41,168 nucleotides of DNA from Acidobacteriota bacterium (GTDB taxonomy: Bacteria > Acidobacteriota > Thermoanaerobaculia > Gp7-AA8), in the NCBI GenBank assembly GCA_003223645.1, contig QHVT01000035.1:1-41168 (forward strand), given 5' to 3'. Made by a program: the position numbers and the translations under genes. The notes under the pieces are model-generated. The model was not told the DNA's origin and searched no databases. It saw nothing but the letters and a program-made list of their open reading frames with translations. Below, in pieces: positions 9,237 through 28,807 of the stretch (position 1 is the first letter of the stretch; each line of letters starts with the position of its first letter).

Positions 9237-10373
9237 CTACCTCGTCGCGGCATTCGCGGCGAGGGCGCGGTTCCAGACGAAGACCTGGTTTTTTCCGAGC
9301 GCTTTGGCCTGGTACATCGCCGTGTCGGCGCGGCGGAGGAGCTCGTTTTTCTCGTGGTCGAGCGAGGCCGTGCTGTTGCGGTCGGGGATGTGTTGCGCGA
9401 CGCCGATCGATGCCGACAGCACGCCGCGCAAATGAACCGGCGGCATGTTGAAGCCCCACGGACGATCGAGAAAGGACGTCGCCTCGATCGCCTGCCGGAT
9501 TTCTTCGCAGAGCGCGAGTCCTTCGTCGAGTGTCGTGTCGGGAAGGATCATCACAAATTCGTCGCCGCCGTAGCGCGCGACGGTCGCGTCGCCGCGCTGC
9601 ACGATGCGCTTGAGAAGAAAGCCGACTTCGCGCAGCACCTGGCTTCCGGCGAGATGTCCGTGGCAGTCGTTCACGATCTTGAAGCGATCGAGGTCCATGA
9701 ACAGCAGCACCGATTCCTTGCCGCTCTTGCGCGACTCCTCGAGCGTTTCGGTGAGGCGGACGTGGAACCAGCGATCGTTGTACAGGCCGGTGAGATCGTC
9801 CTTCTTCGCCAGCTCGTGCGCGCGTTTCGCTTCGAGCGCGTTCTGCAGCGTGAACGAGGTGTAGCCGGCGAAGATCTCCATCAGGTTCATGTCGCGCGGC
9901 GTGAACGTTTTTCCCTCGTGGCGATTGATCAGCTCGAGGACTCCGACGACGTGCTTGCCGAGGTAGATCGGGACGGCGACGATGGACCCGGAGCGATGAC
10001 CGAGCTGCTCGTCGATGTCCTTGTAGAAATACTCGTCGAGCTCGACGTTCACCGACAGATGCGGCTGGCCGGTTTGGTAGACGTGACCGACGATTCCGTG
10101 CTGCGCGGAGAGGCGCTTGCCGATCAGCTCGCGGCTCGCCTCGCCGAACGCGGCGATGAAAACCAGCTCGTTGTCCTTGCGCGACGCGACCTTGCGATAT
10201 GGATCGTCGAGGAGAATCGATCCCGACTCCGCGGGCACGAACTCGTTCGCGCGCTGCAGGATCTGCCGCAGCACGAGATCGAGCTCGACATTATCCTGCA
10301 GCGACAGCCCGGACTTATGCCTCTCGAGAAACCGCTCGAGTTGAGGAATCTCGAGAGAATGAAACTGCATCAT
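9237..10373 (-). CDS. GAF-GGDEF diguanylate cyclase
   Basis: Predicted to make cyclic di-GMP from two GTP. Residues about 30-190 form a GAF sensor, followed by a GGDEF domain to about 365. The catalytic YGGDEF is intact, with FMDLDRFKIVND upstream (metal Asp) and RRADTAMYQAKALGKNQV downstream. The product-inhibition site is not canonical: the residues before the signature are RGDATVARYGGDEF, so the Asp of RxxD is replaced. No signal peptide or membrane helix is seen, so the sensor should be cytosolic. It begins ATGATG, and no Shine-Dalgarno is obvious. Confidence 0.92.
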   Translation of the reverse strand: MMQFHSLEIPQLERFLERHKSGLSLQDNVELDLVLRQILQRANEFVPAESGSILLDDPYRKVASRKDNELVFIAAFGEASRELIGKRLSAQHGIVGHVYQTGQPHLSVNVELDEYFYKDIDEQLGHRSGSIVAVPIYLGKHVVGVLELINRHEGKTFTPRDMNLMEIFAGYTSFTLQNALEAKRAHELAKKDDLTGLYNDRWFHVRLTETLEESRKSGKESVLLFMDLDRFKIVNDCHGHLAGSQVLREVGFLLKRIVQRGDATVARYGGDEFVMILPDTTLDEGLALCEEIRQAIEATSFLDRPWGFNMPPVHLRGVLSASIGVAQHIPDRNSTASLDHEKNELLRRADTAMYQAKALGKNQVFVWNRALAANAATR

Positions 10374-11713: not shown

Positions 11714-12178
11714 TCACCCTTTCTTCTTCACCGACAACGTCAACTCGAACTTCGCCACCGGCTCCTCGCCCAGCTTGGACGGCACGGTCGCGGTGACGTG
11801 CACGGTCGCTTCCTGCCTCTCGCCGGTTTCCAACGCGCGGCGCAGCAGGTCTTGAACGACATGCCCGTCGTTGTTCGTGAACACGACGTCGCCTTCGGCG
11901 CGCTTCAGAAACTCCGCTTTCAGGTCCTTGAAGATGAAGACGACGCGCACCTTGCGCTCGTTGACGATCTTGAAGGAGATGAGGCCCGCGGCGACGTCGG
12001 CGCCCATGCAGAGCGTGCCGAGGTACATCGCGTGAATGTCGCGGCGGCGCGTGATCCAGTTGAGCGGCACGCGGACGATGCAACGGTCGTCCGTAAGCTC
12101 GACGATCTTCGGGCGGATGAGCCAGAGCAGAAACACGTTCTGCAGGGACCAGAGGCGGACCATCGTCGTCGGCTTCAT
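11714..12178 (-). CDS. DUF4442 hotdog-fold protein (thioesterase-like)
   Basis: A 154-residue protein of the DUF4442 group, related to PaaI-type acyl-CoA thioesterases with a hotdog fold. Visible family features are an N-terminal amphipathic segment (LWSLQNVFLLWLIRPKIV), the RRRDIHAMYLGTLCMGADVAAG helix region, and a beta-rich C-terminal half. No member-specific substrate can be read from the sequence. A palindromic element separates it from the SDR gene upstream on the same strand. Confidence 0.75.
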   Translation of the reverse strand: MKPTTMVRLWSLQNVFLLWLIRPKIVELTDDRCIVRVPLNWITRRRDIHAMYLGTLCMGADVAAGLISFKIVNERKVRVVFIFKDLKAEFLKRAEGDVVFTNNDGHVVQDLLRRALETGERQEATVHVTATVPSKLGEEPVAKFELTLSVKKKG

Positions 12179-12186
12179 TCAGTACC

Positions 12187-12265
12187 TCGGTTGCGCAGTC
12201 GTTCGGTCACGCGGTTGCGCGGCGCATCCAAAGCATTGCCGCGTAACCGCGCGACTGCGCAACCG
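12187..12265. repeat. Iterated palindromic element, CGGTTGCGCAGTCG family
   Basis: The left arm holds two related units (CGGTTGCGCAGTCG and CACGCGGTTGCGCGGC); the right arm holds their complements ending GCGACTGCGCAACCG. It fills the gap between the SDR stop and the DUF4442 start. The same family recurs at 40018-40082. Confidence 0.8.
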
Positions 12266-12272
12266 AGCAACC

Positions 12273-13013
12273 TCATCTCCTCACCCGCTTCATCAATCGA
12301 TCGTAAACCGGATCGGGAAGATGCCGCAGGAAGCGCATCAGGAGCGACATCGGCAGCGGGAACTCGACGACGCGCTTTCCGCGCTCGATGCCGTCGGCGA
12401 TGATGCGTGCCGATTTCTCCGCTGACATCAGGAACGGCATGCGGAAGCGGTTCTTCTCCGTCAGCGGCGTGGCGATGAAGCCGGGGTTCACGATCGTGAC
12501 GCCGACGCCGTACGGCTTCAGCTCGATGCGGCTCGCCTCGAGAAACGTCTGCATCGCGGCCTTGCTCGCGGAGTACGTCGCGCCGCTCGGCAGCCCGCGC
12601 AGTCCGGCGATGGAGGCGACGCCGACGAAGCGCCCCTTCTTCGCCTCGATCATCGGCGGAATCACGGCATCGAAGAAGTTGAGCATGCCGATCACATTCA
12701 CGCGAATGATCTCGTTCGCCACTTCGGCGTCGAATTTGGGCACCGGACTCGGAATGCTGATCCCCGCGTTCGCGATCGCGAGATCGAACGCGCCGCCGAA
12801 ATGATCGTGCGCGCGTTTCACGGCATCGCGCACGGATGCGAGATCTGTGACGTCGCACGGCAGCGCGATCGATTTCGTCTTCAGCGAAGACGCCAGCTCA
12901 TCGAGCAGCTCGCGCCGCCGCGCGAGCAGCGCGAGCTCGTAGCCGCGGTTCGACAACTCACGCGCCAGCGCGTGGCCGATGCCGGTGGACGCGCCGGTAA
13001 TGATTGCGCGCAT
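12273..13013 (-). CDS. Short-chain dehydrogenase/reductase (classical SDR)
   Basis: An NAD(P)H-dependent oxidoreductase of 246 residues. The start at 13013 gives MRAIITGASTGIG, with the cofactor motif TGxxxGIG at residues 7-13. LPCDVTD and the NAG motif (IANAGIS) follow; the catalytic Tyr-x3-Lys is YSASK, with the preceding Ser in VASIAG. The C-terminal helix is basic. The longer frame upstream runs into the divergent Uma2 gene and is rejected. Substrate unknown. Confidence 0.9.
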   Translation of the reverse strand: MRAIITGASTGIGHALARELSNRGYELALLARRRELLDELASSLKTKSIALPCDVTDLASVRDAVKRAHDHFGGAFDLAIANAGISIPSPVPKFDAEVANEIIRVNVIGMLNFFDAVIPPMIEAKKGRFVGVASIAGLRGLPSGATYSASKAAMQTFLEASRIELKPYGVGVTIVNPGFIATPLTEKNRFRMPFLMSAEKSARIIADGIERGKRVVEFPLPMSLLMRFLRHLPDPVYDRLMKRVRR

Positions 13014-13055
13014 GTTCGGGCGGATCGTAGCACCGTGCGTTATCCTAAAGGCCGA

Positions 13056-13625
13056 ATGACTGCCTCCGCACCGCAATCACCTCACGAGTACTCCTTCGCG
13101 GAGTACCTTGCGCTCGAGCGTGACAGCGAGATCAAACATGAATTCTATGCGGGCGAGATTCTGGAGATGGCTGGCGGAACCACCAGGCACAGCGCGCTCG
13201 CGATGAACGTCGGATTTGCAATCCGTGGTACGCGTCCCGAAGGCTGCACCGTATTCCAATCAGATATGCGGGTCCGCGTCACTGCAACCGGGCGAGCCAT
13301 GTACCCCGATGTGTCTATGGTTTGCGGGCCCATCGAACACGATCCCGAGGACGCTGCGCACACAACAATCACGAACCCCCTGCTCATCGTCGAAGTCCTT
13401 TCGGTAACGACAGAGAAAGACGATCGCGGAGACAAGTGGCTGCACTATCAGCGGATCCCCTCGCTCCAGGAATACGTGCTCGTCGGTCAGCAGCCGCGCA
13501 TCGAGGTCTTCCGCCGCACGCCAGCCGGCACGTGGGAGTATTTCGAAGCAGAGGAAGGAGGCGTGAGACTCGCCACCGGCCCGACACTCGATTTCTCCGT
13601 TTTGTACGCCGACCTTCCGGCCTGA
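13056..13625 (+). CDS. Uma2-family (DUF820) restriction-endonuclease-like protein
   Basis: A PD-(D/E)xK-fold protein, 189 residues. The N-terminus FAEYLALERDSEIKHEFYAGEILEMAG is the family hallmark. The nuclease-like core is YPDVSMVCGP (metal Asp) and LLIVEVLSVTTEKDDRGDKW (Glu-x-Leu then Lys). Function in this family is unsettled, although many copies sit near mobile DNA. The ATG is preceded by TATCCT at 13041-13046 with no Shine-Dalgarno, so a leaderless message is plausible. The longer open frame upstream is antisense to the SDR gene. Confidence 0.88.
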   Translation: MTASAPQSPHEYSFAEYLALERDSEIKHEFYAGEILEMAGGTTRHSALAMNVGFAIRGTRPEGCTVFQSDMRVRVTATGRAMYPDVSMVCGPIEHDPEDAAHTTITNPLLIVEVLSVTTEKDDRGDKWLHYQRIPSLQEYVLVGQQPRIEVFRRTPAGTWEYFEAEEGGVRLATGPTLDFSVLYADLPA

Positions 13626-13685
13626 CGACTCCCCGATGATCTTTACCATCACCCACTTGTCCCGGCCGCCCGCTATGAACTCCGC

Positions 13686-13940
13686 ATGACCTACATCATC
13701 TGCGAGCCGTGCGTCGGAGTAAAAGATACGGCGTGCGTGGATGTCTGCCCCGTCGACTGCATCTACGGCAAACAGGAAGACTGGGAGATTCTCTATATCC
13801 ATCCCGAGGAATGCATTGACTGCGGGCTCTGTGTCGCCGCGTGTCCGGTCGAGGCGATTTACCCGCTCGATATCGTTCCTGCCAAGTGGAAAGAGTGGAT
13901 CGCCAAGAACTACGAGCACTTCGGCTTGACGCCTCCGTGA
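13686..13940 (+). CDS. fdxA: 7Fe-8S ferredoxin (Thermus/FdxA type)
   Basis: An electron-transfer protein of 84 residues. Cys9-x7-Cys17 with Cys53 fits a [3Fe-4S] site, and Cys21 with Cys43-x2-Cys46-x2-Cys49 a [4Fe-4S] site; Cys6 and Cys25 are extra. The sequence ICEPCVGVKDTACVDVCPVD is typical of FdxA-type bacterial 7Fe ferredoxins, which have a C-terminal extension (here KEWIAKNYEHFG). It is a lone gene; its redox partner is not evident. Confidence 0.92.
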   Translation: MTYIICEPCVGVKDTACVDVCPVDCIYGKQEDWEILYIHPEECIDCGLCVAACPVEAIYPLDIVPAKWKEWIAKNYEHFGLTPP

Positions 13941-13946
13941 GTCCGT

Positions 13947-15731
13947 TCATTTCAACTTCGGCAGCTTCACGCCATCCTGGAATACGTCCGCGAACAAATC
14001 CCCCACTTTCGCGAGCCGGTTCGGCATCGTCTTGATGTTGAACTTCAGCGGGTCGAGTTTGGGCGTGATCTCGCTCCATTTGAGCGGGGCGGAGACGGGC
14101 GCGCCGTTGATGGCGCGCGGCGAGTATGGCGCGACGACGGTTTTTCCGTAGCCGTTTTGCATGCAGTCGAGGTAGAGCCGTCCGCGGCGTTTGGCGATGC
14201 TGCGCTCGACCGTCATCGTCGGCACCTTCTTCGTCACGGCCTCGGCGATCGCGCACGCGAACTCTGCGGCTTCTTCGTGCGAGTAGCCGGGCGCGAGGGG
14301 GACGAAGACGTGAATGCCGCGTTTGCCGGACGTCTTCGGGACGCTCGGCAGTTCGAGGTTCTCGAGCAATCGCCGCATCACGCCCGCGGCTTCGATCGCC
14401 TGCTCGATCCCTTTTCCTTTCGCGGGATCGAGATCGAACAGGATCCAGTCCGGCTCTTCGAGCTGCGGCGCGCGCGACGACCACATGTGCACAGTCAAGA
14501 TCGACATCTGCGCGAGCCAGCGCAGCGCTTCTTTACTGTCGACGATGAGGTGCCGCACGGTTTTGCGGCTGGCGACGCGCGTCGGCGTCTCGACGATCGT
14601 CAGCCACTCCGGACCTTCCTTGCCGATGTGCTGATGAAACCATGACGGCTTGTCGATGCCCTGGTTCCAATGTTCGAGCGACAGCGGACGGTCGCGCAGT
14701 GTGCGCAGCATCGGCTCGGCGACGGCTTCGTAGTAGTCGGCGATGTGCTGCTTCGTGATTCCGTCGCGCGGATAGAGCAGGCGATCGGGATTGGTGAGCG
14801 TGACGGCCGGTTTCTCGTGCACCACTTCTTTGACGCCTTTGTCTTCGCGTAATCCGAGGAACGAAGGATGACGGAGGCGGTGATCGCCGGTCCACTCCGA
14901 GAACGCGACTTCGCCGACGAGCCGCGGCTTCACCCAGATCGCGTTGCGATCTCGCGGCGCGCCTTTCACATCCGTTTTGTCGATCACGTCCTTGGCGAGC
15001 ATCTCGCGCAGCGTTCCGCGCATCTTCGCGGAGAATCCGGTGCCGACTTTGCCGGAGTAGACGAGCTGTCCGCCTTCATTGACCGCGAGGTGCAGCGAGC
15101 CGATCTCGCGGTCGGTCGCGCTGCTGGCCTGATATCCGATGATGACGAATTCCTGCTGATTGAGCGTCTTGATCTTCAGCCATTCCTTCGAACGGCGGTT
15201 CTCGTACACCGACGAGTTGTGCTTGGCGATGATCCCTTCCCACTTTTCTTTCGCCGCGAGCTGCAGCGCCTTCTCGCCGCTCATCTTCAGCGTCTGCGCG
15301 ACGATGATTCCGGCGGGCGGCTTCCTGAACAGTTTCTCGACGAGGGCGCGGCGCTCGATGTACGGCTTGCCGCGCAGGTCTTCGCCGTCGAGCCAGAGCA
15401 CGTCGAAGATCACCATCCGCTCGTTGCCGCCCTGCTGCAGGAGTTGAAACCGCGGCGCGCCCTGGTCGTCGAGCACCACGACTTCGCCGTCGATGATGAT
15501 CTCCTTCGACTTGATCTTGTGCAGCGCCTTGTACGTTTGCGGGAAGCGCGGCGCGAGATCGAGCTCGTTGCGGCTCTGCATCACGACATCGCCGTTCACG
15601 ATGGCGACGAGCGCGCGGAAGCCGTCGTATTTCAGCTCGTACGTCCAGTTCTCCGCGTCGCGCGGCGGCGCGTCGGCGAGCGTGGCCAGCATCGGCGGGA
15701 AGATTTTCTTCAGCAGTTGTTTCGGCGTCAT
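13947..15731 (-). CDS. ligD: LigD-type ATP-dependent DNA ligase with polymerase domain
   Basis: A double-strand-break repair ligase, 594 residues. Domain order is ligase then polymerase. Ligase: Lys34 nucleophile in YELKYDGFR, IIIDGEVVVLD, EGIIAK (165-170), WLKIK (184-188), OB fold to about 305. Primase-polymerase: about 310-590 with the metal pair DLD at 433-435 (ILFDLDPAKG). The 3'-phosphoesterase domain of Pseudomonas-type LigD is missing, and no Ku gene lies in the window. The ATG overlaps the stop of a polynucleotide-kinase-like gene (ATGA), so end-healing and sealing activities may be co-expressed. Confidence 0.93.
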   Translation of the reverse strand: MTPKQLLKKIFPPMLATLADAPPRDAENWTYELKYDGFRALVAIVNGDVVMQSRNELDLAPRFPQTYKALHKIKSKEIIIDGEVVVLDDQGAPRFQLLQQGGNERMVIFDVLWLDGEDLRGKPYIERRALVEKLFRKPPAGIIVAQTLKMSGEKALQLAAKEKWEGIIAKHNSSVYENRRSKEWLKIKTLNQQEFVIIGYQASSATDREIGSLHLAVNEGGQLVYSGKVGTGFSAKMRGTLREMLAKDVIDKTDVKGAPRDRNAIWVKPRLVGEVAFSEWTGDHRLRHPSFLGLREDKGVKEVVHEKPAVTLTNPDRLLYPRDGITKQHIADYYEAVAEPMLRTLRDRPLSLEHWNQGIDKPSWFHQHIGKEGPEWLTIVETPTRVASRKTVRHLIVDSKEALRWLAQMSILTVHMWSSRAPQLEEPDWILFDLDPAKGKGIEQAIEAAGVMRRLLENLELPSVPKTSGKRGIHVFVPLAPGYSHEEAAEFACAIAEAVTKKVPTMTVERSIAKRRGRLYLDCMQNGYGKTVVAPYSPRAINGAPVSAPLKWSEITPKLDPLKFNIKTMPNRLAKVGDLFADVFQDGVKLPKLK

Positions 15732-19713: not shown

Positions 19714-20964
19714 ATGACCGAGATCCCGGACGTCGTCGACCATCTGTTCCGCCACGCGGCGGGACAGATGGTCTCGACGCTGACGCGCGTGTTCGGCCCC
19801 GAGCACCTTTCGCTCGCCGAGGAGGTGGTGCAGGAGGCGCTGATCTCGGCGTTGCAGCAGTGGGGCCTGCGCGGCATCCCCGAAAACCCGCAGGGCTGGC
19901 TGTTCCAGGTCGCGCGCAATCGCGCGCTCGATCAGCTGCGGCGCGACGCGTCGCTGCGCGCGAAGGAGCCGGAGATCATCGCCGCGCTGCATGAACGCGC
20001 CGACGATCCGCATCCCGCGTTCGCACACGAGTTGCGCGACGATCAGCTGCGGATGATGCTGATGTGTTGCCATCCGGCGATTCCGCGTGAGAGCCGCGTC
20101 GCGCTGACGCTGAAGACCGTCGGCGGATTCAGCGTCGACGAGATCGCGCGCGCGTTCCTGACGAAGAAGGAGACGATCGCGCAGCGGATCGTGCGCGCGA
20201 AGCGGTTGATCCGCGACGAGCGGATCCCGATCGAGATGCCGTCGCGCGTCGAGTTGCCGGAGCGCGTCGACTCGCTGCTCGAAGTCATCTATCTGATGTT
20301 CAACGAAGGCTACAGCGCGCACGCCGGCGACGATCTCGTGCGCTCCGATCTGTGCGCCGAGGCGATTCGACTCGGACGCGAGATCGCGATGCATCCGGCG
20401 ACGGATGTGCCCGAGGCGCACGCGCTGCTCGCGCTGATGCTCATGCAGGCCGCGCGATTGCCTGCGCGCATCGACGCCGCCGGCGAGCTGTCGACGCTCG
20501 CGGAACAGGACCGCGCGCTGTGGGACCAGGCGATGATCGCCGACGGCATGCGCCAGCTCGGAGAATCCGCCGAAGGCGAGCGACTGACCGCGTATCACGT
20601 CGAGGCCGCGATCGCCTCGTGTCATGCCATCGCGGAATCGTTCGAAGACACCGACTGGGACGCGATCGTCGCGCACTACGACCTGCTGACGGAGCTGAAG
20701 CCGACGCCGGTCGTCGCGCTCAATCGCGCAGTCGCCGCCGCGATGGCCGAAGGTCCCGCGGCCGCAATGTCAGCCATTGAAGAAATCGAGTCGCACGAGT
20801 CGCTGCAGAACTATCTCCCCCTCCCCGCCACCCTCGGCGAACTGTGTCTGCGGTTGGGCGATCGCCGCCGCGCGGCCGAATACTTCACGCGCGCGCTGGA
20901 GTTGCCGGCGACGATGCCGGAGAAGAAGTTTTTGTTGAGGAAGCTCGAGGCTTGCGGGCGGTGA
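19714..20964 (+). CDS. ECF42-type RNA polymerase sigma factor
   Basis: 416 residues, much longer than a basic ECF factor (about 190). Region sigma2 is at about 15-75 (EEVVQEALISALQQWG, GWLFQVARNRALDQLRR) and sigma4 at about 110-165 (GFSVDEIARAFLTKKETIAQRIVRAKR). The long C-terminal extension with TPR-like helices (LPLPATLGELCLRLGDRRRAAEYF) is characteristic of ECF42, which has no classical anti-sigma and is thought to be controlled through the extension. Paired with the DGPF gene upstream. Its 3' end overlaps the convergent multidomain gene by 80 bp. Confidence 0.92.
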   Translation: MTEIPDVVDHLFRHAAGQMVSTLTRVFGPEHLSLAEEVVQEALISALQQWGLRGIPENPQGWLFQVARNRALDQLRRDASLRAKEPEIIAALHERADDPHPAFAHELRDDQLRMMLMCCHPAIPRESRVALTLKTVGGFSVDEIARAFLTKKETIAQRIVRAKRLIRDERIPIEMPSRVELPERVDSLLEVIYLMFNEGYSAHAGDDLVRSDLCAEAIRLGREIAMHPATDVPEAHALLALMLMQAARLPARIDAAGELSTLAEQDRALWDQAMIADGMRQLGESAEGERLTAYHVEAAIASCHAIAESFEDTDWDAIVAHYDLLTELKPTPVVALNRAVAAAMAEGPAAAMSAIEEIESHESLQNYLPLPATLGELCLRLGDRRRAAEYFTRALELPATMPEKKFLLRKLEACGR

Positions 20965-23797
20965 CCCGCTTCCATTCGAGCATGGCGGCGAGCGAGTGCT
21001 GGACGAAGTCCGTGCGGACCTCGCTGGAATGGATTCCCTCGCGCAGGCCGCCGATCGCATAGTCGGGGTTGGGAAGGATCGATCGATCGCGCTCCTGGAT
21101 GATGAGCCGGTCGAGAAAGCGCAGGCCGCGCGCATAGGAATCGAGGTAGGTCGCGCGACGCCGGCCGCGCGCGATCGAGGCCGCCGCCGCGAGGCCTTCG
21201 AGATACACCGCGGTCGTGTAGCCGGGCGTGCCGGCTTGATGGTCGTTGATGAAGCCGCCAGTCTTCTCCTGCTGATATCCGAGGAGCCAGTCTGCGATCT
21301 CGAACGTCATGTGGGCGAACTGCGGGTCGCCCGTCACCTCCCACCACTTGCTGAAGGCCTGCAACAACCACGTGACTTGCCCGAAGTGGCGCTTGTACCG
21401 GAAGCGATGCCGGTAGTATTGAAACGCGCGGCGGAGCCGTTCCTCATCGATCGCCGAGACGCCCTGTTGGCAGGCGACGGCGAGAGCGAGCAGCACCTGG
21501 CCGGGAAAGTACTCCTGGTACTCCTCGAGGGATGGATCGCCGGCAGCTTTGTGCGTGGCGATGCGGCCGTGAGGCAGTTCCACGCGCCGCCACAGGGCGG
21601 CGGCGAGATCCTTCATCGACGAGCGCCTCGGATCGCCGTCTTCCAGATTGCTGAGCGCCAGAAGGAGGAAGGAGATCTCGGCGGCGGAGTCGTCCAACTC
21701 GCCTTTGAAGAGAGCGTCGATCGCTTTGCCGGCAGCGCTTCCAAGCCCGTCGCCGCCGACGACGTTGTGGGCGCGGCTCAAGACCCATGCGCCGTGAGCC
21801 TGCCTCGCCGAATCGGCGTCCTCGTACAACCGGTTCTGAAACGGTTCATACGACGAAAAGAGCGTGCCGTCGTCGCGCATGTGTTTGAGCAGATAGCGCA
21901 GCTGCAGTTTGCAGTGCCGGTCCGCAAGCACGCGGGCCGGCGGCAGCTTTTGCTGCGGCACAGGAAACCCTCCGGCGGTGGGCCAGACGCCGTCCGGACC
22001 GGCCAGCCACGTCGTGCAGTCGTAGCGGCACCAGTCGTACGGAGGCTCGGACAGGCCGGCCTTTTCGAGCACCGCCTCCGCAAAACTCACGTCGTCGAGG
22101 TTCCAGAGGCTTGCGACGAACGGGAGCAGCATCCCCGCCTGCTCGCCGCGATGGGCCATCAGTGCCTGCTCGCCGTGACGGTAATAACGAACCACTTCTT
22201 CCGGCTTCGGGTCTCCGAGCTCGAGCGGATCAAACAGCAGCGAGACGGTGACGGCGATCGAATCGGGGCCGGCCGGTTCCGTCTCGTCGAACCGGTCATC
22301 AGCGAGAGCGGCTCCGACGATCGTCTTCAGGTCCTCGTCGAGGTTGCGTACCGCCCAGCCCATGCAACCGCGGAGACAGCCTTCGATGTAGACCGTCACA
22401 TACAAAGAGTCGACGTTCTCCGGAAGCAGGTTGTCCGCCAGCGGAGCGGTCGTTTCGGGCAGGCCCGATCGTTGGGCCAGCACGAGGTCATGCGCGCGAT
22501 CAGCAATCCGTCCGCAGACCATTCTGTCCTTGTACCAGGGCAGCGGGTCGGACTCCGGAACGCCGGCCGGTTGCCAGCTCGCATCCGGCTCGACGGCCTT
22601 GACGACTTCGTGCCGGAGAATCTCGTACGGCTCGAATGGCTCGAGCTGCGCGTTCCTGATGCGCGCGTGCTGGAGCTGCGCCCATTCGCCGGCAATGCCC
22701 GGCATGCGCGGCAGAGCGCCGCCGATTCTCTCGCGCCGCTCCAGGCTCCGCACCACGATGCCGTAACGATCGTTGTCGAGCTGACCCGGGCTGCACGGCT
22801 CGAGCGCGCTGAAAAACGTCACGGCAAACGCGCTCTCCTCGAGGATGCGCAACCCCTCCTCGCCGCGCGCCAGCCCCTCGGCCGTGCTCAGCGAGGCCAT
22901 CACCACGTCATCGGCTGCCGAACGGGACGTCTCGCCCGGGAAGTGCCAGAACCCGCCGCGGGCATGACGATGATGGAGGTCTTCGCGCGAACGGATGCTC
23001 ACCCACGCGCCGCCCGCTGAATCGTAGTCCTGGTCCAGCTGTTCGGGCGGACGCAAAAGCCTGCCGGACGACAGGTATTCCGAAAGAACCAACCGCGCGA
23101 GCCGCGCGGGATGAAAGTGTTCGGGTGCCCGCTCGGTGTGCCATTCGAACTCGGGAAACCATTTGGAAGGATTGGCCGGCGTTTTCTCTTCATCGTCCAT
23201 GGATGCGATGAAGTCGTCCCAGATGTCGTAGACCGCTTCCATGTGAAACCCGCGCTCCTGCATCAGCGCGTAGCCGTTTTCCCAGCCGAAGCGCACCAGG
23301 CAAATCCCGCCCTCGACACGCAGGCCCGCGGCTTCGAGCCGCTCGACCGCCTCGGTCATACAAGTTCCGGAGCTCACCGAGTCGTCGATCACGATCACCG
23401 GCTCGCGGGGATCGATCTCGCCCTCGATGAGTTTGCAGGAGCCGTGTTGCTTCCGCTCCTTGCGAACCAAGAGACCTCCATAGCGGCTGTCCTGGAGCAG
23501 GCAGGCCTGCAGAATGGGAACGCCGGTCAGCCCGTACGTCGCGAGCTGCCGGCCGTCGAATCGCTGGAGGAGCTCCAGCACGCACTTCCCCGCCAGTTCC
23601 GCGCCACTCTGCGAGAGCGTGACGGAAAGGGAGTCCAGCATCCAGCGCGCGGAGGTGCCGTCACGCGAAAGCACGGGCTGCGTCTCCGAGCGATGCAGAA
23701 TCCCGCGCCGGAGCAGCAGATCGAGCAACTCGGCGCGCCGCGACTGAAAACTCTCGGGAAGCGATCCCAGCGTCGTGGAAAGGGCTTCGCGCAACAT
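20885..23797 (-). CDS. Multidomain protein: OPRT-like + AMMECR1 + alpha/alpha toroid
   Basis: 970 residues. Residues 25-195 resemble orotate phosphoribosyltransferase: RKERKQHGSCKLIEGE (112-127) and the PRPP loop VIVIDDSVSSGT (134-145). Residues about 260-390 may be a degenerate AMMECR1 copy. Residues about 430-590 form a clear AMMECR1 domain: GCLRGCMGW (473-481), ADDRFDETEP, MLLPFVAS and LEKAGL. Residues about 605-950 are repeated helical hairpins (WVLSRAHN, WLLGYQQEKTGGF) like an alpha/alpha-toroid glycosidase or terpenoid-cyclase fold. No signal peptide. It starts 7 nt after the radical SAM stop, so it is cotranscribed. The low-complexity Ser/Ala/Pro tail overlaps the convergent sigma gene and looks like readthrough. 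Predicted to be part of the RiPP-like pathway, activity unknown. Confidence 0.82.
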   Translation of the reverse strand: MLREALSTTLGSLPESFQSRRAELLDLLLRRGILHRSETQPVLSRDGTSARWMLDSLSVTLSQSGAELAGKCVLELLQRFDGRQLATYGLTGVPILQACLLQDSRYGGLLVRKERKQHGSCKLIEGEIDPREPVIVIDDSVSSGTCMTEAVERLEAAGLRVEGGICLVRFGWENGYALMQERGFHMEAVYDIWDDFIASMDDEEKTPANPSKWFPEFEWHTERAPEHFHPARLARLVLSEYLSSGRLLRPPEQLDQDYDSAGGAWVSIRSREDLHHRHARGGFWHFPGETSRSAADDVVMASLSTAEGLARGEEGLRILEESAFAVTFFSALEPCSPGQLDNDRYGIVVRSLERRERIGGALPRMPGIAGEWAQLQHARIRNAQLEPFEPYEILRHEVVKAVEPDASWQPAGVPESDPLPWYKDRMVCGRIADRAHDLVLAQRSGLPETTAPLADNLLPENVDSLYVTVYIEGCLRGCMGWAVRNLDEDLKTIVGAALADDRFDETEPAGPDSIAVTVSLLFDPLELGDPKPEEVVRYYRHGEQALMAHRGEQAGMLLPFVASLWNLDDVSFAEAVLEKAGLSEPPYDWCRYDCTTWLAGPDGVWPTAGGFPVPQQKLPPARVLADRHCKLQLRYLLKHMRDDGTLFSSYEPFQNRLYEDADSARQAHGAWVLSRAHNVVGGDGLGSAAGKAIDALFKGELDDSAAEISFLLLALSNLEDGDPRRSSMKDLAAALWRRVELPHGRIATHKAAGDPSLEEYQEYFPGQVLLALAVACQQGVSAIDEERLRRAFQYYRHRFRYKRHFGQVTWLLQAFSKWWEVTGDPQFAHMTFEIADWLLGYQQEKTGGFINDHQAGTPGYTTAVYLEGLAAAASIARGRRRATYLDSYARGLRFLDRLIIQERDRSILPNPDYAIGGLREGIHSSEVRTDFVQHSLAAMLEWKRVTARKPRASSTKTSSPASSPATPARA

Positions 23798-23804
23798 GAG
23801 GGGA

Positions 23805-25646
23805 TCAGAAATACGGATTCTCGGGAAGGGCCAGACTGAGATAACGCTGGTCGAGATGGACAATCAGGTCTTTCTCCACGAGCTCTTCCAGCGCCGGCCC
23901 GACCCAGCCGGCGTCCTCGAACTTCGCGGAGATCTCCCTCAGGCTGCGGGCATCGGCGCAATATTCGTAAAGACTCGCGTAATCGTCCGAGTAGGCCGTC
24001 GTGCGCGGTGAGCCGTTGCGCCCATCCTCGATCAGGATCGTCGCCCAGGTCTTGCGATAGCGCAGATACGGCCGCGGCTCCCGCCGCCAGCGCTCCTGCC
24101 ACTCCTCCACGGCCTCGAAGATCTCGCCGTACTCATGATCCTCGAGGGTATTGCCCATCTCGTGCTCGAAGTAATAGGAAACACGATTCAGGTCGAAGCG
24201 GTCTTTCGGGAACAGATAGTCGTAGCAGGGCGACGGAACCAACCGGGTCACGGACTGCGTCTCGGGCTCGGCATACATCGGCGAGCCGCGGTCGGCGCGC
24301 GCCTTCGCAACGGCCCAGGGCGCCTGGAAGTGATGAATCTTCGACATCACCTCGCACTGGGCTCGATAGTCTTCCCGAGTCTCGCCGGGAAACCGGAGCA
24401 GGATGTTGTAGAGATTGTTGATCCCGTAGTAGGTGGACCACTTGATCAACTCCAGGTTCCGGACGCCGGTGGTGTGCTTTCGCATCAGCTTGAGAATGTG
24501 CGTGGAGAAACTCTCGACCCCCGGCTGGATCGAAAACAGCCCGCCTTTTCGCATCTGCTTCAGTTGCGCGCGCGTGAGACTCGGGCGCACCTCGTAGTGG
24601 ATGCGGAGATCGGTGTTGGCCTCGCCGAGGCGCTGGAACAGCTGATCGACGTATTCAGGGGCGATGATGTTGTCGATGGCGTTGAAATCGAGGATGCCGT
24701 AGCGTCTCGAAAGCTCGTCGAGTTGCTGAATGACGTTCTCGACGTGCTTGGAACGAAATTCCATGCCGGCGCGATTGAGACCGCAAAACGTGCAGTGGTT
24801 CTTCACACCCCACCAGCAGCCGCGCGCCGTTTCGATCGGCAGTAAGACCTCTTCCGCTTGACCGTAGTCGTGGTACCCGCCCTCTTTGCGCGCGTAGAAA
24901 TACTCGTCGAAATCGGGGACCGGAGTCTTGTTCATGTCGGCGAGGTTGGGAGCCCGGCCGGCATACGCCACCTGACTCCCGTTGCGCCACATCATGCCCG
25001 GAATGCCCGCCATCGACTGGCCGGCATAGAGACGGCGGATGGCCGGGGCTAGTGTCTCATCGGCATCGCCGCAATGAACGTAATCCACCTCCGGGCAGCC
25101 CTTCATGATTTCGTCGGCGATGTCGTCTTCGAAGGTGGCGCCGCCCATCATGACCGGAATGTGCGGATACTTCCGCTTGAGCGCCTTCGCCAGCGCAAGA
25201 CTCGCGAGCATCTGCTGAAAAACGACCGAGAACCCGATCACGCCGAACCGGCTCCAGTCGATGCTCGTCATGCAGAAGTCGATGAACGCCGGCGCCTCGG
25301 TTTCGCGCAGACGGCGGAGATCGTCGAGCGAACAGCCGGCCTTTTCACAGATGGTTTCGAGGTCGTCCCGATAGGTCTCGAAGTAGCCGTCGCCGGCCGC
25401 GAAATCACCGAAGGCGGCCTTGGTCCAGATCCACTCCCCCAACATGCACGGGTAGACCTCGGACAGCGTTTCGTTGAGACGCCAGCCGACCTGCGTTCCG
25501 AAATACATGAAGAGCGAGAACGTCTGAACGGGAAGCCCTTCGCTCTCGAGGGTCGGTTTGAGCAGAGCGAGTTGAAAGGATGGAAAACGCGCCGAGAGCG
25601 TCGGCATGCTGACGAGTGCAACCGGCTTGAGCGGATCGGTAGCCAT
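23805..25646 (-). CDS. RiPP-maturation-type radical SAM protein with B12-binding-like domain
   Basis: 613 residues from the chosen ATG. Residues about 8-240 form a Rossmann-like B12-binding-type domain (IPVMMGGATFED, YVHCGDADETL); the DxHxxG cobalamin signature is not apparent. Radical SAM core about 265-480: Cys277-x7-Cys285-x2-Cys288 in RGCWWGVKNHCTFCGLNRAG, typical of the ribosomal-peptide maturation radical SAM protein 1 group (TIGR03975), and SIQPGVESFS. The C-terminus (about 500-613) is a winged-helix-like peptide-binding region. It presumably modifies the Pro-rich protein encoded upstream. The start at 25646 lies after a stem-loop; 25712 is an alternative giving 22 more residues. Confidence 0.88.
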   Translation of the reverse strand: MATDPLKPVALVSMPTLSARFPSFQLALLKPTLESEGLPVQTFSLFMYFGTQVGWRLNETLSEVYPCMLGEWIWTKAAFGDFAAGDGYFETYRDDLETICEKAGCSLDDLRRLRETEAPAFIDFCMTSIDWSRFGVIGFSVVFQQMLASLALAKALKRKYPHIPVMMGGATFEDDIADEIMKGCPEVDYVHCGDADETLAPAIRRLYAGQSMAGIPGMMWRNGSQVAYAGRAPNLADMNKTPVPDFDEYFYARKEGGYHDYGQAEEVLLPIETARGCWWGVKNHCTFCGLNRAGMEFRSKHVENVIQQLDELSRRYGILDFNAIDNIIAPEYVDQLFQRLGEANTDLRIHYEVRPSLTRAQLKQMRKGGLFSIQPGVESFSTHILKLMRKHTTGVRNLELIKWSTYYGINNLYNILLRFPGETREDYRAQCEVMSKIHHFQAPWAVAKARADRGSPMYAEPETQSVTRLVPSPCYDYLFPKDRFDLNRVSYYFEHEMGNTLEDHEYGEIFEAVEEWQERWRREPRPYLRYRKTWATILIEDGRNGSPRTTAYSDDYASLYEYCADARSLREISAKFEDAGWVGPALEELVEKDLIVHLDQRYLSLALPENPYF

Positions 25647-25674
25647 CTCGGATTCAAAAGAGCCGGGGACCGCA

Positions 25675-25697
25675 GGCACCCCGCGGTGCGGGGAGCC
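25675..25697 (-). terminator. GC-rich stem-loop between precursor and radical SAM genes
   Basis: Arms GGCACCCCGC (25675-25684) and GCGGGGAGCC (25688-25697) pair in 9 of 10 positions around a 3-nt loop. No U-tract follows. In RiPP operons a stem-loop after the precursor gene often lets through only a fraction of transcripts and stabilises the precursor message; that role is inferred here. Confidence 0.6.
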
Positions 25698-25738
25698 GGC
25701 GGACCTCGGCATGCGTGATTACGCCCGATTCTCGAGGA

Positions 25739-26113
25739 TCACTTCTTCTTCTTCGGACTCGGAGCAACTTCCGGAATCGGCCGGCGCGGCGCTTTTTGCG
25801 GCGCGACTTCCGGGATCGGCCTCGACTTCCTGTCCGGTGCTACTTCGGTAATCGGTCCCCGTTTCCTCTGTGGCGACACTTCCGGGATCGGTCCCGGTCT
25901 CTTATGCGGCGCCACTTCCGGAATCGGCCGCCGCGGCGGTTTTGTCGGCGCGACTTCCGGGATCGGTCTCGGTTTCTTATACGGAGCCACTTCCGGGATC
26001 GGGCGCCGCGGCACGTTTGCCGGTGCAACTTCGGGATTCGGACGTTTCGCAGGAATCGAACGTTTTGCGGGGGCGATTTCCGGCCGGACTCCGGATTTGG
26101 ATTTGCCCTTCAT
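25739..26113 (-). CDS. Proline-rich repeat protein, putative multi-core RiPP precursor
   Basis: 124 residues, very basic, without Cys, Trp or a signal peptide. About nine imperfect repeats with consensus RPIPEVAP plus a 4-5 residue linker (YKKP, TKPPR, HKRP, QRKR, DRKS, QKAPR): octads start at residues 24, 37, 49, 62, 74, 86, 98 and 111, with a first divergent copy at 10-15 (RPEIAP). Spacing alternates 12 and 13. The tail is SPKKKK. The ATG follows GGAGG at a 7-nt distance and a strong promoter. Its place between a prolyl-hydroxylase-like gene and a RiPP radical SAM gene makes it the likely substrate. It lacks an obvious leader; the N-terminal 9-23 residues may serve. A non-RiPP Pro-rich scaffold is the main alternative. 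Confidence 0.78.
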   Translation of the reverse strand: MKGKSKSGVRPEIAPAKRSIPAKRPNPEVAPANVPRRPIPEVAPYKKPRPIPEVAPTKPPRRPIPEVAPHKRPGPIPEVSPQRKRGPITEVAPDRKSRPIPEVAPQKAPRRPIPEVAPSPKKKK

Positions 26114-26188
26114 GGATCTTCCTCCATAGTCATGGCACCAACGCGCCTGAACGAGAGCCGCTGCAGTGATGTTTCGGTTTACGTAAGG

Positions 26189-26217
26189 AACTTAGAGCGA
26201 AACGGTAATCTTGTCAA
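26189..26217 (-). promoter_or_regulatory. Near-consensus sigma-70 promoter for the precursor gene
   Basis: On the minus strand TTGACA (26217-26212), a 17-bp spacer, and TAAGTT (26194-26189). The start of transcription would fall near 26182, giving a leader of about 70 nt before the ATG at 26113. It lies after the oxygenase stop codon, so precursor, radical SAM and multidomain genes can be transcribed without the oxygenase gene. Confidence 0.8.
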
Positions 26218-26240
26218 CAAACCTGGGCGTGCCTTCCCGC

Positions 26241-26804
26241 CTATCGGAACCAGCTGATGATCGTGAAGCGTTTGCCGCTCGTGACGGGCAGCACCTCGTG
26301 CACCGTATCGGCCTTGAACGCAACCAGCAATCCGGTTTCGCCCGCCAGCCCATATTTCTTCCGCCGATCGTAAAAGGTCAGCGAACCGCCGGAGAACGAG
26401 TCATTCAAAAACACGACGATCGAGACTCGGCGGGCTCGCAAGTGATCGAAATCGAGTTGATCGGTGTTGCCGTCCTGGTGACGAACGAAAAAGTCCCCCG
26501 TTTCATAACGCAGGAACTGGGGCCGCTCGCAGTCCTTCAGACTCGTACCAAAATGCTCGTCCAGTGCTGATTTTTGGCTCGAGAGCCGTCTCTTGATTTT
26601 GCGAACGGTGTTCCTGGCGGGGTGAAGACTCGCGGTTTTGCGGACGGTCTCGTGAATCGTCCCTTCGACGCCTTCGAGATAGACCGGAGCCCGCGTCGTC
26701 GGAGCCGAATCCAATTCCGCCGTCAACCTCGCACAATGGTCTGGATCCAGAAAGTTCCGCAGCAAAAACAAATGGAAATGCGCCGGCCCGTCTGACTTCG
26801 GCAT
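26241..26804 (-). CDS. Prolyl-4-hydroxylase-like 2OG-Fe(II) oxygenase
   Basis: 187 residues, a single double-stranded beta-helix domain. The iron triad is His109 and Asp111 (YETGDFFVRHQDGN, 99-112) with His169 (DTVHEVLPV). Lys178/Arg179 in GKRFTIISWF fits the 2-oxoglutarate anchor. SIVVFLNDSFSGGSLTFYD is the usual strand pair of P4H-type enzymes. The family hydroxylates proline (or other residues) in peptides, consuming O2 and 2-oxoglutarate. Directly upstream of a protein that is about one-quarter proline, so hydroxylation of the repeat prolines is the natural inference. No signal peptide; it acts in the cytosol. Confidence 0.88.
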   Translation of the reverse strand: MPKSDGPAHFHLFLLRNFLDPDHCARLTAELDSAPTTRAPVYLEGVEGTIHETVRKTASLHPARNTVRKIKRRLSSQKSALDEHFGTSLKDCERPQFLRYETGDFFVRHQDGNTDQLDFDHLRARRVSIVVFLNDSFSGGSLTFYDRRKKYGLAGETGLLVAFKADTVHEVLPVTSGKRFTIISWFR

Positions 26805-26856
26805 TGCGTTCTCACGCTACTTTTCGAAAACAATATCATCGCGCGGGTGACGCAGT

Positions 26857-26950
26857 CCTGGCCTCCTGGCCTCCCAGAGTCCGAGCCTCCAAGCCTTGCA
26901 GAAACACCTCTGCGACTAGGAGGCTTGGAGGCCGGGAGGCTCGGAGGCCC
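26857..26950. repeat. Iterated palindromic element, GGAGGCTNGGAGGC family
   Basis: Units such as CTGGCCTCCTGGCCTCCC and GAGCCTCCAAGCC face inverted units (GGAGGCTTGGAGGCCGGG) across a loop that includes a second small palindrome (GCAGAAACACCTCTGC). It lies between the divergent oxygenase and prolidase genes, 50 bp from the first and 35 bp from the second. Confidence 0.82.
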
Positions 26951-26985
26951 GGGCCGGGCGGGCGGTGTTATATCCTCGCGCCGCC

Positions 26986-28320
26986 ATGATGGACGACGCG
27001 CTCGCCACGATTTACACCGCCCACGTCACGATTCAGAAGCTGCGGCACGACCGCGCGCTGCTCGAGGGGAAGTTCGATCACGTCGCGATCTTCTCCGGCG
27101 CGCTGCACTACCAGCTGTTCGACGACATGTCGTATCCGTTCAAGCCGAATCCGCATTTCAAATCGTGGGTGCCGGTGACGGACAACCCGAACTGCTTCGT
27201 CGTCTACACGCCGAACGTCAAGCCGAAGCTCATCTACTGGCAGCCGGTCGACTACTGGCACAAGGTCGCGGAGACGCCGACCGATCGCTGGACGGAAAAG
27301 TTCGACATCGTGATGATCGCGAATCCCGACGACGCGAAGGCGCATCTCCCCTCCGGCCGCATCGCGTTCCTCGGCGAATGGGACGAGCGCTTCGCGAGCT
27401 GGGGCGACCTCACGCCGAACCCCGAGCCGATCCTCAACAGCCTGCATTGGGACCGCGCGTGGAAGACGGAATACGAGATCGAATGCCTGCGTCGCGCGAA
27501 CGAGCGCGGCGCGCGCGGACACCTGGCCGCGGAGAAAGCGTTCCGCGGCGGCGCGTCGGAGTTCGAGATCCACGTCGACTATCTCGCGGCGTCCGATCAT
27601 GCCGAGGAGGAGTTGCCGTACGGAAACATCATCGCGCTCAACGAGCACGCGTCGACGCTTCACTACTATCACCACGGCCGCAGTCGCCTCGACAAGAAAA
27701 ATCTCTGGTCGTTCCTCATCGACGCCGGCGGGTCGTACAACGGCTACGCCAGCGACATCACGCGCACCTACTCGACGCACAAGGACGAGTTCCACGACCT
27801 GATCGCCGCGATGGACGAGATGCAGCTCGCGCTCGTCGATGCGATCCGTCCGAAGGTGAACTATCCCGACGTGCATCTCCTCTCGCATCGCAAGGTCGCG
27901 GAGATCCTCGCGCGCTTCAACTTCGTGCGCGACATCGATGCGGACGGCATCGTCGAGCGCCGCATCAGCTCCACGTTCCTCCCCCACGGCGTCGGTCACT
28001 ACCTCGGCCTGCAGGTGCATGACGTCGGCGGCTTCATGGCCGACCGCAGCGGCAAGACGATTCCGAAGCCGGAAGGGCATCCGTACCTGCGGCTCACGCG
28101 CGTCGTCGAGCCGGGACACGTCTTCACGATCGAGCCGGGCCTCTATTTCATCGACACGCTGCTCGCGGAGCTGAAGACGAGCGAGAACGCGAAGTTCGTG
28201 AATTGGGAAAAGGTCGGCGCGTTCCGCAAATACGGCGGCATCCGCATCGAGGACGACGTGCTCGTCACCGAGACGGGGCACGAGAACCTCACGCGCAACG
28301 CCTTCGCGAATGTGGCCTGA
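26986..28320 (+). CDS. pepQ: Xaa-Pro dipeptidase (prolidase, M24B)
   Basis: Hydrolyses X-Pro dipeptides using a two-metal pita-bread site. 444 residues, near E. coli PepQ. The N-terminal creatinase-like domain spans about 1-160. Metal ligands: Asp in FLIDAGGSYNGYASDITRTY (two Asp), His in LPHGVGHYLGLQVHD, Glu in TIEPGLYF and Glu in GGIRIEDDVLVT. The ATG at 26986 (first of two) is preceded by TATCCT at 26971-26976 and no Shine-Dalgarno. It is divergent from the Pro-rich peptide cluster; whether it processes that product is speculative. Confidence 0.95.
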   Translation: MMDDALATIYTAHVTIQKLRHDRALLEGKFDHVAIFSGALHYQLFDDMSYPFKPNPHFKSWVPVTDNPNCFVVYTPNVKPKLIYWQPVDYWHKVAETPTDRWTEKFDIVMIANPDDAKAHLPSGRIAFLGEWDERFASWGDLTPNPEPILNSLHWDRAWKTEYEIECLRRANERGARGHLAAEKAFRGGASEFEIHVDYLAASDHAEEELPYGNIIALNEHASTLHYYHHGRSRLDKKNLWSFLIDAGGSYNGYASDITRTYSTHKDEFHDLIAAMDEMQLALVDAIRPKVNYPDVHLLSHRKVAEILARFNFVRDIDADGIVERRISSTFLPHGVGHYLGLQVHDVGGFMADRSGKTIPKPEGHPYLRLTRVVEPGHVFTIEPGLYFIDTLLAELKTSENAKFVNWEKVGAFRKYGGIRIEDDVLVTETGHENLTRNAFANVA

Positions 28321-28807
28321 CCTGACCCACACGCAGCAGCTCGCCGACGTCCTGCAAGTGCTGTCGGCGATGATCACGCCGGCCGTGCTCATCCTCGCCT
28401 CGAGCTCGCTGCTCCTCACGACGTCGACGCGCTCGATCCGCTGCATCGATCGCGTCCGCGAGCGCACCGACGAGCTGGAAAAGCTCGGAACGGCGACGGA
28501 TGAAGTGACGGAGCGTCGCCGCAAACATTTGTACGAGCAGCTCGAGGTGAACATCCGCCGCGCGCGATTGCTGCAGCGCGCGATGTCGCGCTTGTACATG
28601 GGCATCAGCTTCTTCATCGGCACGAGCGTGTCGATCGGCGTCACGTCGCTCTTCAGCGCCGCTCTCGGCTGGATCCCGCTGATCCTCGGCTTCGTCGGCG
28701 CGGGCCTTCTCTTCTCCGCGAGCGTCTACCTGATCATCGAGTCGCGCCATGCGCTGACCACGACGTACGCGGAGATGGACTACATCTCACGGAACTACAT
28801 GCGATGA
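28310..28807 (+). CDS. DUF2721 membrane protein
   Basis: 165 residues. Overlaps the prolidase end by 11 nt, so probably translated with it. Helix at about 17-38 (VLSAMITPAVLILASSSLLL), a charged helical middle with RIRCIDRVRERTDELE-type and RRKHLYEQLEVNIRRARLL segments, and two more helices at about 95-145. This layout is that of DUF2721 proteins, whose function is unknown. Confidence 0.85.
   Translation: MWPDLTHTQQLADVLQVLSAMITPAVLILASSSLLLTTSTRSIRCIDRVRERTDELEKLGTATDEVTERRRKHLYEQLEVNIRRARLLQRAMSRLYMGISFFIGTSVSIGVTSLFSAALGWIPLILGFVGAGLLFSASVYLIIESRHALTTTYAEMDYISRNYMR

Follow-up and report, generated by a model that had tools for sequence, protein, structure and literature searches.

The window, which is the whole stretch of 41,168 nucleotides analysed here (on contig C26 of a 6.38 Mb assembly), carries four minus-strand genes arranged head to tail between positions 26804 and 20885. 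A check of the open reading frames found all four where the first-pass annotation had placed them and in the order it gave, and also the gap of 7 nt that it had described between the stop codon of the radical SAM gene and the start of the multidomain gene. The features are:

26241 to 26804, minus strand: 2OG-Fe(II) oxygenase, 187 amino acids, with a 2OG-FeII_Oxy_3 profile; apparently accessory, missing from some homologous loci.
25739 to 26113, minus strand: repeat protein and putative precursor, 124 amino acids, with 9 E[VI]xP units and without a database family.
23805 to 25646, minus strand: B12-binding radical SAM enzyme of C-methyltransferase type, 613 amino acids (TIGR03975 rSAM_ocin_1, CX7CX2C).
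20885 to 23797, minus strand: multidomain partner, 970 amino acids, with an OPRT-like domain, a middle domain, an AMMECR1 domain and a predicted (alpha/alpha)6 barrel.
23366 to 23464, minus strand: RKERKQHG loop and VIVIDDSVSSG PRPP-binding-type motif in the OPRT-like domain, residues 112-144 of the multidomain protein.

The radical SAM reading frame opens at 25712, and the ATG at 25646-25644, which gives 613 amino acids, is favoured because the homologue at locus L008 begins MTTDSLKPVAL. An Rfam scan of window positions 20000-28500 returned no match. A promoter scan of the window was uninformative (1 found, 1.0 expected), and 10 terminator-like sites were found against 5.1 expected. No leader peptide, protease or exporter is recognised by Pfam and NCBIfam profiles among the four genes. 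A divergent gene on the plus strand (26965-28320), encoding an Xaa-Pro dipeptidase (NF010133, 594.2 bits, cutoff 339), adjoins the proline-rich repeat cluster; no such gene was noticed by eye in the open reading frame lists of loci L004, L005 and L008.

The 613-amino-acid protein is by its profile scores a clear member of the TIGR03975 family of RiPP C-methyltransferases. It scores 537.4 bits with TIGR03975, well over the cutoff of 281.85, across residues 8-606 of 612, and its earlier placement in the RiPP maturation radical SAM group is thus upheld. The B12-binding domain (PF02310) and the Radical_SAM domain (PF04055) are both detected, at 32.7 bits (cutoff 32.1) and 49.8 bits (cutoff 29.5), respectively. 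The CX7CX2C motif reads C-WWGVKNH-C-TF-C and is kept in all five aligned radical SAM rows.

The E[VI]xP units of the window's repeat protein are mostly RPIPEVAP or GPIPEVSP-like and stand 12-16 residues apart. The protein contains no Leu among its 124 residues and no Cys, and has a net charge of +21. The motif E[VI]xP is present nine times; 2000 shuffles that preserved composition averaged 0.37 and never exceeded 3. No Pfam or NCBIfam model matched the protein at E up to 1, and it does not have the profile of a proteusin NHLP-type precursor in these collections; NCBIfam includes an NHLP model. A profile search with the repeat proteins of the window, L044 and L045 found no family above cutoff, and by eye the N-termini differ among the repeat proteins of the homologous loci described below. 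Pairwise comparison of the seven best window copies, in which the pairs are not independent, gave 46 synonymous and 12 non-synonymous codon differences. Such a pattern fits selection on the repeat at the protein level and not a recent duplication of the DNA.

Seven further loci have close homologues of the radical SAM enzyme, the multidomain protein and the repeat protein; five are acidobacterial or of the same phylum and two are in one Mycobacterium. Close homologues are in metagenome-assembled genomes of Acidobacteria/Acidobacteriota and Pyrinomonadaceae, and one genome, G060, belongs to the window's own class. A radical SAM scan of the genome contigs gave seven loci, of which five have enzymes 54-87% identical to that of the window. 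L004 and L005 display oxygenase, repeat protein, radical SAM and multidomain genes in the same order as in the window. In L008 the contig stops after the first three, and another contig of the same genome (L048) has the terminal part of a multidomain gene, 75% identical. In L004 (positions 11948-14500) the multidomain gene is interrupted by a frame change with codons missing, possibly an error of the metagenomic assembly. L006 and L007 are the two loci of Mycobacterium sp. OAS707, with repeat protein, multidomain protein and radical SAM. At L044 and L045 the cassette includes repeat proteins of E[VI]xP type (244 and 430 amino acids), at L044 together with two tandem radical SAM genes. The cassette is therefore real and conserved: a repeat protein lies in or beside it at all eight loci, window included, whose radical SAM enzymes are 54-100% identical to that of the window.

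As controls, 13 loci with other TIGR03975-like enzymes, which share 28-36% identity with the window enzyme, were used. They derive from 15 matches, with the window and a contig-end fragment (L021) omitted; L012 and L022 were merged as L049 and L019 and L024 as L055, and the resulting 11 loci were joined by L009 and L010. Some are short (L018, 3.7 kb; L057, 8.2 kb; L058, 9.1 kb). None of the 13 has a homologue of the multidomain protein or the oxygenase at E 1e-5, and none has an open reading frame with more than one [PT]E[VI][AS]P; with the looser E[VI]xP pattern, a single control frame (820 amino acids, L050) has four. By eye, L049 and L055 seem to have precursors of the nitrile-hydratase type. 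L050 also has, at 9635-10099 and directly 3′ of the distant TIGR03975-like gene, a 154-amino-acid open reading frame with repeated GMGPTPAPAPPPEPE units, which is perhaps another proline-rich repeat substrate.

These distributions bear on an alternative in which the repeat protein would be a low-complexity neighbour, structural or regulatory in role, without functional tie to the enzymes. Proline-rich low-complexity open reading frames are common, and the net charge of the cassette repeat proteins varies widely, from +21 to −45. A bystander is nonetheless scarcely credible in view of a repeat protein at eight of eight loci with radical SAM enzymes at least 54% identical and at none of the 13 controls, and of a motif that lies far above shuffled sequences at every one of the eight loci.

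As charge varies so widely, the core motif and not charge is the conserved feature. The E[VI]xP counts are 9 in the window, 17 in L004, 14 in L005, 25 in L008, 10 in L006, 11 in L007, 19 in L044 and 39 in L045; shuffling the eight proteins gave means of 0.4-3.1 with maxima of 3-10. In seven of the eight the x position is mostly Ala, and in L004 it is mostly Arg. Glu is followed by Val or Ile in 9/9 cases in the window, 17/24 in L004, 14/21 in L005, 29/33 in L008, 12/31 in L006, 21/40 in L007, 46/50 in L044 and 58/76 in L045. Leu is nearly avoided, with counts of 0, 0, 0, 0, 1, 1, 2 and 2 (window, L004, L005, L008, L006, L007, L044 and L045, in this order), compared with 9-12% Leu in the three window enzymes. 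For L006, unit counts and charge refer to a frame of 339 amino acids with an over-long start, and Leu and Glu counts to a shorter start giving 215 amino acids. Since the units are 12-16 residues apart in the window and 4 apart in a long stretch of L004, it is difficult to say what makes up one unit. The shared core is E-[VI]-x-P and not PIPEVAP. The repeats described in the first-pass annotation are thus present, and radical SAM, multidomain and repeat protein recur together, which was the check it had proposed, but neither its PIPEVAP pattern nor its oxygenase is constant among the loci.

The RiPP-like nature of the cassette appears well supported by enzyme family and co-occurrence. Gene order, family membership, conservation of the motif and co-occurrence are observed; what we infer concerns the substrate relation, the site, the chemistry, the role of the partner and the biological purpose of the cassette. 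The preferred reading, given a probability of roughly 0.6, is a co-inherited RiPP-type cassette in which the radical SAM enzyme C-methylates the repeat protein, the multidomain protein is a partner and the oxygenase adds a hydroxyl where it is present. The repeat protein would be the substrate, and the B12-radical SAM enzyme would bind the E-[VI]-x-P units and C-methylate them successively, most likely at the beta carbon of Val or Ile, such that Val would become tert-leucine and Ile 3-methyl-isoleucine. The OPRT-AMMECR1-barrel protein would be the constant partner that acts on the same repeat substrate or presents it, and the hydroxyl would plausibly be added to a repeat proline.

The choice of the beta carbon follows from a described enzyme. 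PoyC, which shares the CX7CX2C motif, is reported to beta-methylate Ile3 and Val5, 10 and 21 of the polytheonamide precursor (PMC11285071). Because of this likeness, together with the Val/Ile bias and the avoidance of Leu in the repeat proteins, Cbeta-methylation of Val or Ile in each unit is the simplest reading and the best guess by analogy. The invariance of Glu, Pro and Val/Ile cannot by itself pick the site, because these residues were the basis on which the motif was selected. The TIGR03975 C-methyltransferases, and PoyB and PoyC (PoyC presumably itself scores in TIGR03975), have in common with the window enzyme the B12-binding and radical SAM domains and a Val/Ile-rich ribosomal substrate. 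The putative substrate differs, being here a Leu-poor E[VI]xP repeat protein without a recognised leader, and we know of no OPRT-AMMECR1-barrel partner from proteusin clusters.

The oxygenase matches 2OG-FeII_Oxy_3 (PF13640) with 58.7 bits over a cutoff of 27 and has the HxD...H pattern, which we take to be the motif of 2OG-Fe(II) oxygenases. Its nearest solved chains are PKHD-type hydroxylases, with a weak best E of 3.8e-5. Assignment to the 2OG-Fe(II) oxygenases thus stands, and the label P4H-like given to it earlier is loose. The gene is found beside the repeat gene in four of the eight loci (window, L004, L005 and L008), the other three proteins being 51, 52 and 72% identical to that of the window; no homologue was found in the locus sequences of L006, L007 and L044, and for L045 the sequence reaches just 534 bases upstream. 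The oxygenase therefore seems to be an accessory and not a constant part of the cassette.

Prolyl hydroxylation, with the oxygenase acting on repeat prolines and the other enzymes acting later, was proposed early as the core chemistry and could account for the adjacency of oxygenase and repeat genes. It could also account for the prolines that precede the motif, at −1 and at −3, each in 8/9 window units and 12/14 units of L005. The same proline at −1 is found in 11/11 units of L007, which has no detected oxygenase, and that at −3 in 0/17 units of L004, which has one; loci with and without the oxygenase do not sort cleanly by proline at −1 or −3, and proline position was dropped as evidence of hydroxylation. 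Cassette and motif persist in L006, L007 and L044, where no oxygenase homologue was found, the likeness to PKHD hydroxylases is weak, and the motif common to the loci is built around Glu-Val/Ile, followed two residues later by Pro, and not around PIP. Hydroxylation is therefore not core-looking and is improbable as the main modification. As an addition to the preferred C-methylation, proline hydroxylation by the oxygenase is possible.

The multidomain protein consists of an OPRT-like domain (residues ∼1-200), a middle domain (∼205-420), an AMMECR1 domain (∼420-609) and an (alpha/alpha)6 barrel (∼616-953). The OPRT-like domain shares with PyrE orotate phosphoribosyltransferase a profile match, an RKExKxHG loop and a PRPP motif. 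It differs from PyrE in that the TIGR00336 (pyrE) score of 56.9 bits is under the cutoff of 106.8, and in that it lies within a 970-amino-acid fusion. RKExKxHG is presumably the catalytic loop, and VIVIDDSVSSG a PRPP-binding-type motif. In the multidomain alignment RKExK and DDS..SG are kept in all eight rows that cover the region, and the full loop in six of them, with PYG in place of HG in L046 and L047. As loop and PRPP motif are kept, the multidomain protein is probably catalytic, and the intact motifs suggest phosphoribosyl or sugar chemistry.

The AMMECR1 domain scores 65.7 bits with PF01871 (cutoff 25). In structure comparison its model aligns with 1vaj at Z 17.8 and rmsd 3.2 over 186 residues, and three AMMECR1 entries align solely to residues ∼420-610 of the multidomain protein. 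The middle domain is conserved, and in a model of slice 200-610 (mean pLDDT 74.4) its order of helices and strands is much like that of the AMMECR1 domain. Profile-profile comparison with AMMECR1 gave a probability of 0.3 at an effective depth of about 2, and pairwise BLAST with the genome's own stand-alone AMMECR1 gave E 0.023; the middle domain is possibly a second AMMECR1-like unit. The full-length model is poor (mean pLDDT 56.8), and only its C-terminal part was used, which is predicted to form an (alpha/alpha)6 barrel. Among the best 50 matches listed, the folds are those of sugar 2-epimerases, GH76 and squalene-hopene cyclases (Z 22-25, rmsd 3.2-3.9, 269-320 residues aligned).

These features also allow a different arrangement, in which the multidomain protein makes a nucleotide- or sugar-like small molecule, the radical SAM enzyme methylates that molecule, and the repeat protein serves as a scaffold or carrier. 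The conserved OPRT loop and PRPP motif, and the sugar 2-epimerase, GH76 and squalene-hopene cyclase folds nearest to the barrel among those 50 matches, agree with this. A shared fold, however, shows no function, TIGR03975 is named as a peptide-modifying family, and the strong residue constraint on the motif is unlike that of a plain scaffold. This alternative is considered unlikely. The earlier idea that the multidomain protein helps to conjugate or cleave the repeat protein is a conjecture.

A search of plasmids gave four records with weak partial matches, none covering 80% of the query. One, on the Thioclava plasmid pTElox9 (L029, 7029-8687), matches the barrel alone, at 30% over residues 742-942, and adjoins a Mur ligase family gene.

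The multidomain query alone led to four further genomes (G060, G718, G614 and G589). All four have a TIGR03975 gene in the cluster, and two, those of L044 and L045, have E[VI]xP repeats. The remaining type is a variant cluster at L046 (1605-9812, in G614) and L047 (350-8112, in G589), with the genes on one strand. Here a 783-amino-acid OPRT-barrel protein lacks the AMMECR1 stretch, and the TIGR03975 enzymes score 282.2 and 286.9 bits, barely over the cutoff. A different repeat-bearing protein is present (440 and 335 amino acids, 54% identical over 432 columns), as is a CxxCxxCC-type protein, which in L047 matches PF03692 at 23.6 bits (cutoff 23). The open reading frames of L046 and L047 contain no E[VI]xP repeat (at most one motif per frame). 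To judge from its gene content, the variant broadens the theme and shows that the E[VI]xP motif is not universal.

In searches by taxon, which overlap in genomes, the multidomain family was found in 2/148 genomes of the window's class and 5/395 in the phylum of G149 (the window's genome and G149 included, respectively), in 1/394 in the class and 1/297 in the genus of G150 (both G150 itself), and in 0/349 in the phylum of G152; the G792 match is at the same place as that of G060. With so few genomes matched, the set is rare and patchy. In a quick radical SAM tree, which leaves out the L008 fragment, seven cassette enzymes form one clade (SH-aLRT 100) and the second enzyme of L044 groups among the controls; two control entries, L012_ctl and L022_ctl, have no distance between them and may be a single frame sampled twice from loci that overlap. 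In the multidomain tree, support is 100 for the two Mycobacterium proteins, 99 for L044 with L045, and 97 for a group of the window, L004, L005 and L048. Both trees contain the Mycobacterium pair and the grouping of the window with L004 and L005; in the radical SAM tree L044 and L045 do not pair.

Several neighbouring genes were observed in addition. At L005 (14770-16533) and L008 (4986-6720) the cassette has beside it a radical SAM/SPASM gene of TIGR03913, "GDL motif peptide", which scores 652.9 and 635.0 bits over a cutoff of 591.75 and is accompanied by a small PPYGEAIRGA-type peptide frame. On contig C3 of the window genome (L056, 5606-7631) a similar-looking set, seen by eye, lies beside the other TIGR03975-like gene of that genome. 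At L044 (4465-6656), DgcN-like and DgcA/L-Ala-D/L-Glu epimerase-like genes, below equivalog cutoffs, are just upstream of the cassette.

Among known systems, tvgABCDE is the nearest described logic found (PMC9062424). It encodes TvgA with a TVGG repeat, the radical SAM enzyme TvgB and the Fe/2OG oxidase TvgC, and thus has in common a repetitive precursor, a radical SAM enzyme acting on a repeat Val and a neighbouring 2OG-type oxygenase. TvgB differs in that it forms cyclopropylglycine, with loss of 2 Da, in a TVGG motif. The system has transporter and peptidase genes, and the portion of the source consulted neither mentions B12 dependence of TvgB nor names an OPRT-AMMECR1-barrel protein (PMC9062424).

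The AmmeMemoRadiSam system, which combines AMMECR1, Memo and a radical SAM protein, likewise pairs an AMMECR1 domain with a radical SAM protein. In the present cassette AMMECR1 is instead fused to OPRT and barrel domains and scores 61.5 bits with TIGR04335 (AmmeMemoRadiSam protein A), below the cutoff of 99, and the radical SAM enzyme is of TIGR03975. A literature search that covered few subscription papers found no account of this gene set, and no paper that joins AMMECR1 with orotate phosphoribosyltransferase or with radical SAM and RiPP; AMMECR1, Memo and radical SAM each occur once in PMC7159879.

The cassette links a TIGR03975 enzyme, a repeat protein that is poor in Leu and has as many as 39 units of E[VI]xP, and a protein of OPRT-AMMECR1-(alpha/alpha)6-barrel type, a trio not found together in the literature searched. 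The AMMECR1 domain is widespread, and to our knowledge no biochemical role has been established for it; here it gains a testable partner and a candidate substrate. It is also conceivable, if doubtful, that the product is not a secreted peptide antibiotic but an intracellular disordered repeat polymer, beta-C-methylated at E-[VI] and then decorated with phosphoribose or sugar by the OPRT-AMMECR1-epimerase-like protein; AMMECR1 would then have a substrate context, next to a radical SAM enzyme. If the preferred C-methylation chemistry is true, the compact cassette (∼6 kb), whose substrate has many units, would be a handy route to many tert-leucine-type residues per protein. The recurrence of the set in a few distant bacteria points to an unfamiliar chemical decoration of repetitive proteins.
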